NCBI GenBank assembly: GCA_021784595.1
Contig: JAJYHT010000072.1
Location: 1-64,000, forward strand
Direction of reading: 5' to 3'
DNA length: 64,000 nt
Origin: Bacillota bacterium
GTDB lineage: Bacteria > Bacillota > Sulfobacillia > Sulfobacillales > Sulfobacillaceae
Shown here: piece after piece, positions 14,426 to 19,064 of the stretch
Position numbering within the stretch: position 1 is the first letter of the stretch
Layout of the letters: every line of letters begins with the position of its first letter
Program-made: the position numbers and the translations under genes
The notes under the pieces: generated by a model
Databases searched by the model: none
Told to the model about the DNA's origin: nothing
What the model saw: the letters and a program-made list of their open reading frames with translations, nothing else

Positions 14426-16882
14426 GTGTTCGGACAATTTACGGAAAAGGCTCGACGTGTTGTGATCCACGCACAGGATGAGGCCCGGCGCATGGGACAT
14501 AATTTTGTGGGCACGGAACATTTGCTGTTAGGTTTGATTCGCGAGAGCAATTCTTTGCCAGCCAAGGTTTTACAATCAATCGGACTGGACTTGGATACGG
14601 TAAGGGCGGAAGTCCTAAAGGCTACCGGTCGCGGACCGGCTATAGGACCCAACGATGAAGTCACGTTTACACCGCGGGCTAAAAAAGTGGTGCTAGAGCT
14701 TGCTGGACAGGAAGCTAGGGCTTTAAACCAGAACTATATTGGACCCGAGCACTTATTGCTGGGTTTGATTAGGGAAGGCGAAGGCGTGGCAGCCCAGGTG
14801 CTGCTGTCAGCGGGTGCAGATCTGAATAAAGTGCGGCATCAGTTGGTGCATAGCAATACGGGTCAAGCAGGCTCTCAAGGGCCAGCTTCCGAGTCTGCGG
14901 CACCGGTCAACACACCGACCTTGGATTTGTACGGCCGTGATTTGACTCAAATGGCGCGTGACGGGAAGTTGGACCCCGTGATTGGGCGCGATAAGGAAGC
15001 GGAGCGCGTTATTCAAATTTTGAGTCGGCGTACGAAAAACAATCCGGTCTTGATCGGCGAGCCTGGTGTGGGAAAAACCGCCGTGGTCGAAGGATTGGCC
15101 GAGCGCGTGGTAGAGAACAAAGTGCCGGAAACATTAAAGGATCGGCGAGTGGTCGCGTTAGACCTAGGGGCTATGCTGGCAGGCTCAAAATATCGTGGTG
15201 AGTTTGAAGACCGCTTGAAGCGCGCGATGAACGAAATTCGGGAAGCCAAGAACGTTATTCTGTTTATTGATGAAATGCACACTATCGTCGGTGCCGGAGC
15301 TGCCGAGGGGGCAATTGACGCGGCTAACATATTGAAGCCCGCGCTGGCCCGCGGCGAACTGCAGGCCATTGGTGCGACGACTTTGGATGAATACCGCAAG
15401 TATATTGAGCGAGATCCGGCCCTGGAGCGAAGATTTCAACCTATTATGGTGGAAGAGCCGTCAGCCGATGAAGCGGTGCAAATTCTTGAAGGATTGCGCG
15501 ATCGCTATGAAGCCCACCATCGCGTGAATATTACCCAGGAAGCCATCGAGGCGGCGGTGCGCCTTTCCGATCGTTACGTCTCTGACCGGTTTTTGCCTGA
15601 TAAAGCAATCGACTTGATTGACGAGGCTGCATCGCGCGTGCGATTAAAGAGCTATGTGGCTCCGCCCGATCTGAAGGATTTAGCGGGCAAGCTGGAAGAA
15701 TTGCGCAAGGAGAAGGAAGCTGCGGTGCAATCTCAAGAGTTTGAGAAGGCGGCTCAAATGCGGGACGAAGAACAAAAATTGCGGGAAGAACTCGACCAGC
15801 AGACCCAGCAATGGCATGCGCGTCAGGGGAAAGAAGCCATTAATGTGACCCCTGAGGACATCGCCCATATTGTGTCATCTTGGACGGGGATTCCAGTCGA
15901 AAAGTTGGCCAGTGAAGAATCGGAGCGGCTGCTTAAGCTCGAATCCGAACTGCACCAACGCGTGGTCGGACAGCACGAGGCCGTCCAAGCGGTAAGTCGC
16001 GCCATTCGCCGTGCACGGGCCGGTCTTAAGAATCCCCGGCGTCCGATTGGATCATTTTTATTCTTGGGACCGACCGGCGTGGGCAAGTCTGAGTTGGCTA
16101 AGGCCTTGGCGTCGTCGTTGTTTGGCGATGAGGATGCCATGATTACGATTGACATGTCCGAGTATATGGAACGTCATGCGGTGTCCCGTCTGATGGGAGC
16201 GCCTCCGGGATATGTTGGCTACGAGGAAGGCGGTCAATTGACCGAAGCGGTGCGGCGCCATCCTTATTCAGTGGTGCTTCTCGACGAAATCGAAAAAGCT
16301 CACCCTGAGGTCTTCAATATTTTACTGCAGGTGCTAGAGGAAGGACGGCTCACGGAGTCGAAAGGGAGAACGGTGGATTTTCGCAACACCGTGATAATCA
16401 TGACATCCAACGTTGGCGCCGATGTAATTAAGCGTCAGGCGACCATTGGATTTCGCCGGGACAGTGAAGACGGCCAATATCGGGAGATGAAGGATCGTTT
16501 GATGGACGAAGTGAAACGGACCTTCCGACCAGAATTTCTAAACCGGGTCGATGATATCATTGTGTTCCACGAACTAACCCAACAACAGTTGGCGCATATC
16601 GTTGGGATTATGTTGAAAGAAGTCGAGGAGCGGATTGCGCAAAACGGCTATCATTTGGAAGTGACGGAAGGCGCAAGGCACCTAATTGCCCAAGAGGGCT
16701 TTGATCCGGTCTTTGGTGCTCGTCCGCTTCGCCGTGCCATCCAGCGCCTGGTGGAGGATCAACTGGCGGAGGAAATCCTAGCAGGGACTTTCGCACAGGG
16801 GGTGCGGATTTTAGTAGATGAACATGATGGAAAGATGGTCTTTACCCGCAGGGATGATTCTGTCATCGAACAAGAGAGGTGA
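14426..16882 (+). CDS. clpC: ClpC, AAA+ unfoldase of the ClpCP protease
   Basis: 818 aa from GTG 14426, which has AAGGGGGG 7 nt upstream; TTG 14420 is too close to it. Two N-domain repeats ([15 protein letters not shown] and [15 protein letters not shown]) precede the first AAA module ([28 protein letters not shown]). A middle coiled domain with a UVR-type segment ([20 protein letters not shown]) follows, then the second AAA module ([13 protein letters not shown]). It unfolds substrates, including those arginine-phosphorylated by McsB, for ClpP. Confidence 0.96.
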
Positions 16883-16888
16883 GTAGCT

Positions 16889-17543
16889 ATCCGCGAGCAT
16901 AAGCGTTTTGTGTGTCAAGTATGTGCGACCACCAGCGTCCGATGGATCGGACGCTGCCCTGGGTGCGGTGGATATAGCACGATGCAGGAAGAAACCATTG
17001 TGGAATCTCCCGCCATCGGCACGCAGAAAAATACGACTCGTGAACCGGTGGCCTTAAGCCACATTCAATCCGAGGTGGTGACACGCTTTGAATCGGGCTT
17101 GCCCGAAGTTGACCGGGTCTTGGGTGGAGGGATTGTTCCGGGAAGCTTTGTGCTGCTCGGTGGAGATCCCGGCATCGGCAAATCGACACTTTTGCTGCAA
17201 ATTGCGGCATTTGCCAGCCAGACCGGACCCGTGCTGTATGTCACCGCGGAGGAGTCCGCCTCTCAGACCCGTCTGCGTGCCAAACGGCTACAAACTGCAG
17301 GAGACAATTTGTTCGTGCTGGCGGAGGGAGACATCCACCAAATCGTGCGGACAATTATATCAAGAAAGTGGCGACTGGCGGTAGTTGACTCCCTTCAAAC
17401 CGTCTACAATCCCGACTTGGAATCGGCTCCGGGAAGCGTGGGACAGGTGAGAGATGTCGCATCTCGCTTGATGAGGGTAGCCAAAGGAGAGGAAGGCCAA
17501 GCGTGTCCCGTCTTTTTAGTGGGACATGTGACGAAAGAAGGGT
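16889..17543 (+). CDS. radA: RadA DNA repair ATPase, 5' exon
   Basis: The zinc finger CQVCATTSVRW...CPGC and the ATPase (GGDPGIGKSTLLLQIA, LYVTAEES) lead to GHVTKEGS, where the reading frame is cut. Spliced to 18349, the joint reads GHVTKEGS-LAGPRVVEH, exactly the RadA pattern. The start is uncertain. The first standard codon is GTG 16910, which begins at the zinc finger and lacks a ribosome binding site. An in-frame ATC at 16889 lies 6 nt after AGAGGTGA and would restore the usual N-terminal lead (REHKRF). RadA is a RecA-like branch migration factor. It follows clpC as in other Bacillota. Confidence 0.85.
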
Positions 17544-18348
17544 CATTGCGGCCCGTAGCTTAGGGTAACTTAGGCTAAGGCACTGGGCTATATGCATGAA
17601 TGGCTGGGGATGCGATGCGCGAGAGCCCATCGTTGCAGCCGAATGTGCAGGAAACGAGGGAAAACTGCTTGGATCCTCAGAGACAACACGCCCAGCTCCT
17701 GACCGTGTGGGCGCAGGGGAATAAAATGTTTCGCCGATGGCAGCATTACCGGGCACAAGGTTTTGAGCAATGGAGAGAGTTCGAGCAATGGTGGAATTTA
17801 GCACGGAAAATTACGGAACGAGGGTTGCTGGCACAACTGTTTCCTGGGCCGTCTCCCGTAATTTTGGCCGGTGGATTGGGAAAAAACCAAGACGGCTGGG
17901 TGGCGTTGGCGGCTCCAGAGGCTTATTGGCCAGAAGTTTTTAAACGCCTGGTCATTATCCACCAAGGACAGCCAGCGATGGAGTGGACCGACCATTTTAG
18001 TGTTTCGATGGAATGCGCCGCTCTCCTTGGTTTGCGACAATGGAACATGTTGGCTCGTTTGACAGAGCTAGCCTTGTCTGAGAAGTCCACATTATGGACT
18101 TCCCCCCATACGGTCTTGGACGTGCTGTCCATGCTAGACCATGAACTTGGGCGATTAAAGCCATTGTGCCTTGAGGATCTAGAGCCTTTGTCCCGATTGT
18201 GGCGTCATCGGGATCAGGCGCAATATCTAGGGCCGTGGCATCCGTCGGCAGGACGTTACAACTGGTTGATTAGGGCCAGCACCTCTAAAGGGCCAGGCTA
18301 TGTGTGGTCCACTGCGCTTTCGTCAGGATGAAGACATTGTCCACGGTG
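17544..18348 (+). other. Group I intron candidate in radA (805 nt)
   Basis: The insertion splits radA between GHVTKEGS and LAGPRV. Splicing after U17543 and after G18348 gives TCG CTG GCA and restores the frame. The 5' exon GGGU pairs with GCCC at 17551-17554, with the required U-G wobble at the splice site. GCG at 17548-17550 can pair with the 3' exon CGC as P10, and the intron ends in G. A Q-like segment (TTGCAGCC, ~17633) and an R-like segment (CTCAGAGACAACACG, 17676-17690) are present. An S-like AAGACATTGTCC at 18331-18342 gives GACAA/TTGTC as P7. P3 may be GCTGGG 17603-17608 with CCCAGC 17691-17696. P9 is not clear if this S is right; a second TTGTC at ~18190, with a CCCGAT/ATCGGG hairpin, is an alternative. 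Confidence 0.7.
17726..18331 (+). CDS. ORF inside the radA intron, unknown family
   Basis: 201 aa from ATG 17726, with AGGGG 6 nt upstream; the same frame is open from 17600. It would sit in the P8 loop between the R and S elements, the usual place for an intron-encoded homing endonuclease or maturase. I cannot find LAGLIDADG, GIY-YIG, HNH or His-Cys signatures. The protein is rich in Trp (for example FEQWREFEQWWNLARKI, GRYNWLIR). Its stop lies just before the S-like element. It could be an unrecognised homing enzyme, a splicing helper or a passenger. Confidence 0.55.
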   Translation: MFRRWQHYRAQGFEQWREFEQWWNLARKITERGLLAQLFPGPSPVILAGGLGKNQDGWVALAAPEAYWPEVFKRLVIIHQGQPAMEWTDHFSVSMECAALLGLRQWNMLARLTELALSEKSTLWTSPHTVLDVLSMLDHELGRLKPLCLEDLEPLSRLWRHRDQAQYLGPWHPSAGRYNWLIRASTSKGPGYVWSTALSSG

Positions 18349-19064
18349 CGCTGGCAGGTCCACGAGTGGTAGAACACTTGGTGGACGTGGTTCTGATGTT
18401 TGAAGGAGATAGGCAACATCCATTTCGTACCCTTAGAGGGATTAAAAACCGATTCGGGGCTACAAATGAGTTGGGGCTGTTTGCCATGGAAGGTGAAGGA
18501 CTGGTGGCGGTAGAAGATCCGTCGCGCAGCCTTTTGGCTGAACGGCCTATCGATGCGCCGGGATCTGCGGTAGTGGCGGCGGTTGAAGGCAGTCGGCCCA
18601 TTTTAGTAGAGGTTCAGGCGCTCTTAGTGCGGTCGTATGGCAATCCGCGCAGAGTGGTGTCTGGATTGGATCCCCATCGTGCGGCTTTGGTTTTGGCCGT
18701 TATGGAACGCCATCTGGGTCTGCGAATATCTGAGATGGATGCGTATTTTAAGTTGATTGGCGGCGTATCCTTAGACGATCCAGGATTAGACCTGGGAATT
18801 TTGTGTGCGGCGCTGTCCAGTATCCGAGGAGTCCCGGTAGCTTCCGAATGGGTGGTGGCGGGGGAGGTTGGATTGACCGGAGAACTGCGGCGAGTGTCTC
18901 GTATCGGGGATCGCCTTAAGGAAGCGGCTAGCTTGGGGTTTAAACGGGGATTGGTTCCTGGACGGGTGGCAGAAATTTATCCGGGTATCGCTGCCAGTGG
19001 AGTCAGCACGGTGGCTGAGGCAGCTGTTCGGCTGGGCCTCATGCCTGCTCAAACGCTTGATTGA
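18349..19064 (+). CDS. radA: RadA DNA repair ATPase, 3' exon
   Basis: Continues RadA from LAGPRVVEHLVDVVL and FEGDR, through KNRFGATNELGLFAM (the KNRFG motif of RadA), and on to the Lon-protease-like C-terminal domain (VSLDDPGLDLGILCAALSS, GEVGLTGELRRVSRI). The exon by itself has no plausible start or ribosome binding site, so the protein depends on splicing of the upstream insertion. The joined product is about 457 aa, the normal RadA length. disA follows 28 nt downstream. Confidence 0.85.

Follow-up and report, generated by a model that had tools for sequence, protein, structure and literature searches.

How does a bacterium obtain an intact RadA protein from a radA gene whose coding sequence is interrupted by 805 nucleotides (nt)? 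This question is raised by a stretch of 64,000 nt (contig JAJYHT010000072.1, positions 1 to 64,000; hereafter the window) from an acid-loving member of the Sulfobacillaceae, whose genome assembly (GCA_021784595.1) comprises 3.79 Mb in 101 contigs and is 97.5% complete. Here, radA reads GHVTKEGS before and LAGPRVVEH after an insert at 17544-18348. As far as sequence can decide the matter, this insert is beyond reasonable doubt a group I intron, and the explanation that we consider highly probable as a whole is that it is removed from the radA mRNA, with a maturase as the likeliest role of the protein of its own open reading frame (ORF).

An earlier note on this DNA, made from its letters alone, had proposed that a group I intron interrupts radA and that splicing occurs after U17543 and G18348. 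Joining the gene at these positions rebuilds the serine codon TCG and yields an intact RadA, and every relative that we compared supports the same sites. Across 29 introns, the insert measures 678-817 nt and occupies the same radA codon, the junctions are constant (5' GGGT^C...GCGGCCC; 3' ...G^CGCT), and a script check found G as the terminal intron nucleotide in 29/29. The U.G pair at the 5' splice site is present in all 26 introns of the core alignment described below, as well as in distant members. A second, intact radA, which the note regarded as damaging to its proposal, was looked for in the window's genome and not found; other matches there were weak and confined to the C-terminal part. 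The openly licensed literature that we searched agrees with the note that no group I intron has been reported in radA. The features of the locus, all on the + strand, are as follows.

16910..17543, +: radA exon 1, through GHVTKEG and the T of the Ser codon; start codon uncertain
17544..18348, +: group I intron, 805 nt
18349..19064, +: radA exon 2
17540..17554, +: P1, GGGUC 17540-17544 with GGCCC 17550-17554; U17543.G17551 at the splice site; invariant in 26 introns
17548..17550, +: P10 strand GCG; its partner is CGC of the 3' exon, 18349-18351
17557..17576, +: P2, with GUAA tetraloop (GNRA in relatives); 6/8 pairs compensated
17561..17563, +: stop TAG in frame with exon 1, intron nt 18-20; a stop (TAG, TAA or TGA) at this codon in 27/29 introns
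17583..17588, +: P3 5' strand CUGGGC, partner 17690-17695
17593..17649, +: P4 (17593-17598 / 17644-17649) and P5 (17602-17606 / 17636-17640), with a GAGA loop on P5a
17650..17676, +: P6 (17650-17651 / 17675-17676) and P6a (17655-17658 / 17668-17671); Shine-Dalgarno-like GAGGG 17656-17660 inside
17669..18331, +: intron ORF, 220 amino acids; proposed UUG start in P6a, stop UGA in J8/7; mostly in the P8 loop; predicted nuclease-like fold without ExK
17680..17686, +: P7 5' strand with bulged A, R element GAGACAA
17690..17695, +: P3 3' strand GCCCAG
17697..17703, +: P8 5' strand UCCUGAC, partner GUCAGGA 18322-18328
18322..18328, +: P8 3' strand
18337..18342, +: P7 3' strand UUGUCC, S element
18343..18348, +: 3' tail ACGGU and terminal G, without P9

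There is no in-frame ATG, GTG or TTG between the stop upstream of radA (16880-16882) and the GTG at 16910, which itself falls within the zinc-finger region. Translation may begin unusually, at an AUC (16889) that follows an AGAGAGG stretch.

The ribozyme core was assessed in an alignment of 26 introns, from which the ORF part of the P8 loop had been removed and on which helices P1-P8 were drawn by hand. Pairing is formed in 94.4% of cells, compared with 87.8% (standard deviation 0.4) after shuffling. Eighteen pairs are changed on both sides, against 12.4 in shuffles (103 versus 32 cells), and with partners shifted by 1-3 columns at most 47% are paired. Within the Sulfobacillus order, the covarying pairs are found in P2 (six of eight), P5 (five), P8 (three), P3 (two) and P6a (two). 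P7 does not covary at this level, its sole departure being a mismatch at the last pair. The addition of distant members brings covariation to P7 and P4 as well, with two or three compensated pairs in P3, two in P7, three in P8 and two in P4; P7 is GACAA/UUGUC in Sulfobacillus, GACCA/UGGUC in the distant locus L146 and GGCCG/UGGCC in L143. The interpretation of the earlier note is supported, and P1, the GCG/CGC P10 and the R and S (P7) segments are as it described them. The guanosine site, with its G-C pairs and bulged A, keeps the layout G-A-GACAA/UUGUCC in all members, and P10, a pairing that group I introns usually but not universally have, goes from GCG/CGC to AUCG/CGAU where the 3' exon of the distant family has changed. 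GNRA-type loops close P2 and P5a in most members; these loops, together with the conserved ORF and the conserved stop in the exon-1 frame, had escaped the earlier note.

Some observations weigh against this interpretation of the insert. P1 and the four inner pairs of P4 are invariant in the order and therefore provide no covariation evidence there. The Rfam model Intron_gpI, which the note had suggested as a check, finds no match in the window's intron at the gathering threshold or even at an E-value of 10, nor does it match any of eight loci of relatives. The note had named a missing covariance hit, combined with radA mRNA seen solely in unspliced form, as a refutation, and the Rfam search supplies one half of that combination on paper. 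Lastly, P9, called an essential region in a paper on a trans-spliced intron (PMC3873408), is missing from the radA introns. The Rfam result is negative but says little, because the same model gives at most 46 bits (cut-off 50) to an nrd-type intron found by our own models and misses introns in cheY and in a chaperonin gene; the positive control, the T4 nrdD intron, was found at 105 bits.

P9 is the usual 3' element and lies outside the definition of group I applied here. Its lack is described as very unusual in the paper on the trans-spliced intron (PMC3873408), the only statement that a literature search for group I introns without P9 returned. From P7 to the terminal G, introns of the order have about 3-7 nt and those of the distant family at most about 12 nt, and P9 is absent from every radA intron readable there. 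The intron of genome G473 was excluded; a run of N (L147:1174-1320) lies between its P7 and its 3' splice site and makes the 3' end unreadable. The earlier note had counted the want of a clear P9 as a weakness: the absence is real but, being common to every radA intron checked, is not a flaw of the window's copy. In a thermosome-like chaperonin gene there is a related intron whose P9 forms a hairpin with a GCGA loop (CUCUCC GCGA GGAGAG), so that P9 was probably lost in the radA intron line, which is the simpler reading. This relative (L199 minus strand, about 1925-810, on contig 48 of G319) is alike in its core (66 bits with model R1), in a homologous P8 ORF (E 2.3e-4) and in a Shine-Dalgarno-like sequence in P6; it differs by its host gene and its P9.

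A second model detected very compact introns without ORF or P9 in cheY, inserted after ...DAAFMR, at L204:1506-1667 (G252, 162 nt) and L205:1506-1679 (G214, 174 nt). For G252, the spliced reading gives an intact CheY; the boundaries of the L205 intron were set by the same motifs as those of L204. Further group I introns or candidates were observed. One, compact and without an ORF, lies in an apparent phage structural gene (L144 minus strand, about 2165-1915, contig 44 of G041) and has P7 GACUGU/ACAGUC and a P9 hairpin. Another interrupts a ribonucleotide-reductase-like gene at ATNPCGE (L201:1495-2640, G533) and carries an HNH-like ORF; Rfam scores it at 46 bits, below its cut-off. An intron-like match around L203:1181-1650 (G186) overlaps the tmRNA gene adjoining smpB.

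How old is the radA intron? When 42 genomes of the Sulfobacillus order were searched at the DNA level, 32 contained the insert, each with one match, and the matches examined all lie in radA; every radA that was found in the family f1 carries it. Named carriers include Sulfobacillus thermotolerans Kr1 and S. harzensis. Uninterrupted radA genes occur in two genomes of a neighbouring genus of the order (G036 and G037) and in one of the same class (G049). Eight of the 42 genomes gave no radA match and also no good match to the neighbouring disA. G013, G021, G019, G030, G031 and G041 (86-98% complete) have no radA or good disA match, through either gene loss or an assembly gap, though their relatives carry both.

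With a covariance model of the 5' core, the same intron was found at the same radA site in G057, from a further family of the class, and in G214, G252 and G473, which form one family of another class. An intron-free site (GACGGGTCAATTGCTGGC) is present in one f103 genome, and two others of its genus carry the intron. In a tree of RadA exons, the G057 and f103 lineages with introns are nested among intron-free relatives, the intron label requiring four changes, and in f2 an intron-free pair is sister to an introned pair; this tree has long branches, and its groupings were read without a formal clade test. We conclude that the intron is old in the Sulfobacillus order, that it has been lost there at least once and that its inheritance in the order has been mainly vertical. 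That two distant lineages have it at the same site suggests an older transfer between lineages or else many losses. In comparison, the known group I introns of bacterial protein genes (flagellin, recA, nrdE, nrdF; Hausner 2014, PMC3984707) are sporadic, whereas here a whole family has the intron in every radA found. They share with it the ribozyme core, the U.G pair, the terminal G, a stop in the frame of the 5' exon and an internal ORF; the radA intron differs by its new host gene, its lack of P9 and an ORF of no known family.

This ORF is homologous in all radA introns examined. Its likely start lies in or near P6a, with a Shine-Dalgarno-like purine run on the 5' strand of that helix and the start codon on the 3' strand. 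This codon is UUG in nearly all of the order (GUG in one intron, an upstream AUG in another) and AUG in the distant family. Since the first ten or so codons are also the strands of P7, P3 and P8, the protein has an invariant DPQRQ. Beyond this core-encoded start it diverges fast, with a mean protein distance within f1 of 0.69 versus 0.26 for RadA. The ratio of nonsynonymous to synonymous change (dN/dS) outside the core is 0.09-0.35 in 10 of 14 pairs, the other four being saturated, and these comparisons indicate that the ORF is under purifying selection. Its protein distances are correlated with those of RadA (r 0.85, a value reached in 0 of 2000 permutations), the pattern to be expected if the ORF descended vertically in the order. 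Searches of Pfam, PHROG, NCBIfam and PDB sequences gave no credible match, a GNAT match (E 0.05) and an integrase match (E 0.04) being dismissed as chance, and phage and viral collections held no relative.

Structure prediction provides a good lead to the nature of the protein. AlphaFold2 models have a predicted local distance difference test (pLDDT) score of 92 for the window's ORF and 89 for the distant L146 ORF, and the predicted fold resembles that of PD-(D/E)XK nucleases. For the L146 model, nuclease folds dominate the Foldseek matches (HindIII probability 0.87, Hjc 0.99), and VIA gives Hjc Z 7.2 (root-mean-square deviation (rmsd) 2.9, 87 residues), McrC Z 7.0 and FokI Z 6.0. There are points against this assignment: even these matches have a moderate Z of about 7, response regulators, which are unrelated, score up to Z 5.8, and nucleases match the model of the window's ORF less well (HindIII Z 5.4, rmsd 4.4, 129 residues; Hjc Z 4.5). 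Given the scores of the response regulators, the resemblance is a lead and not proof. The top Foldseek match of the window's model, a group II splicing factor, was dismissed (E 0.1, rmsd 13.7), and a viral structure library returned nothing.

The protein may share its predicted core fold with Hjc, HindIII, McrC and FokI and differs from them in its catalytic ExK, which is unconserved. The catalytic D...(D/E)xK is absent or unconserved in 32 ORFs: 28 have no [DEQ]xK in the nuclease region, the other four have it in four different places, and the Asp of the catalytic site, before the second strand, is kept only in the distant family (catalytic positions were located by eye from strand order). 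Outside the RNA-constrained start, the invariant charged residues are basic in all members and there is no conserved acidic residue. The isoelectric point spans 6.3-10.9, so the protein is not uniformly basic, a point against the maturase role. Our best guess, which we believe and doubt in about equal measure, is that it is a maturase that would bind the intron and aid its folding, possibly offsetting the missing P9, because the protein is kept everywhere without a recognizable active site and an intron without P9 may need help. A precedent is the LAGLIDADG maturase of the Thermotoga neapolitana 23S intron, likewise an intron-encoded protein thought to aid the folding of its own intron (cited in PMC3984707); the radA ORF differs in its predicted PD-(D/E)XK-like fold, and its similar function is putative. 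More tentatively, the radA and 162/174-nt cheY introns may constitute an undescribed class of group I introns without P9, in whose radA members a protein with a dead nuclease fold, translated inside the core in competition with splicing, would do the work of P9 at the 3' splice site.

Why splicing would matter to the cell becomes apparent from the reading frames. The frame of exon 1 meets a stop in all 29 introns, at intron nt 18-20 in 27 and at nt 33 in the other two, and in 20 of 29 no start codon in frame with exon 2 follows the closest stop upstream of it; RadA would, for these reasons, require splicing in most members. In-frame stops and endonucleases turned maturase are features of bacterial group I introns reviewed by Hausner (2014; PMC3984707), where ribosome stalling at such stops is cited as a proposed aid to intron folding. 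In the mechanism that we propose, removal of the intron from radA mRNA would be a prerequisite for RadA. Guanosine would attack after U17543, and the exons would then be joined through attack at G18348. Ribosomes translating exon 1 would end at the stop inside P2, leaving most of the ribozyme free of ribosomes, and the second start region, in P6a, would give rise to the intron's own 220-amino-acid protein. As translation of this ORF reads through strands of P7, P3 and P8, a single RNA molecule would be either spliced or translated, and hardly both at once.

The ORF protein might instead be a working homing endonuclease, either of a novel type or with its active site relocated, so that the intron is still mobile into intron-free radA genes. 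Such an enzyme would fit the presence of the intron at one site in three lineages between which RadA is intron-free, the occurrence of intron-free and introned radA in one genus, the nuclease-type predicted fold and the retention of the ORF in every copy. We nevertheless find this rather doubtful: the protein has neither a conserved acidic residue outside the ribozyme-encoded start nor a conserved ExK, the motifs of six endonuclease families (as named in PMC6083498) were not seen, the absence of uninterrupted radA genes among those found in f1 leaves little to invade, and ORF divergence follows that of RadA. It is unlikely, too, that the intron acts as a regulated switch in which a signal sets splicing and the level of RadA, for example through ORF translation against ribozyme folding. 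The Shine-Dalgarno-like sequence and start codon within P6a and the overlap of ORF codons with P7, P3 and P8 are compatible with this, as is fixation in the family, which might suit something useful, and precedents exist in introns that are regulated and in a regulated RadA intein of archaea (PMC8987985); however, no ligand-binding domain or stimulus was identified, and vertical retention is also expected of an intron that is merely hard to lose. That the intron no longer splices, leaving RadA split into two polypeptides or lost, is very improbable, for although the window's exon 2 has an in-frame ATG upstream (18300), the missing exon-2 start codon in 20/29 relatives, with the exon-1 stop at the same codon in 27/29, led us to reject it for most members, and both the pairing at the splice sites and the core have been retained throughout the order, with the RadA exons conserved as well.

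With a group I intron that is removed from radA mRNA, a core DNA-repair gene would join the few bacterial protein genes in which such introns are known. As natural introns without P9, its members would permit a direct test of the need for P9 in the choice of the 3' splice site. Theory expects nucleases to be converted into splicing helpers, and the ORF, kept here throughout an entire order, has the look of such a case. As these introns escape the Rfam model, further ones like them have probably been overlooked. Since every radA found in one bacterial family carries the intron, the cells of that family would depend on splicing for their RadA.
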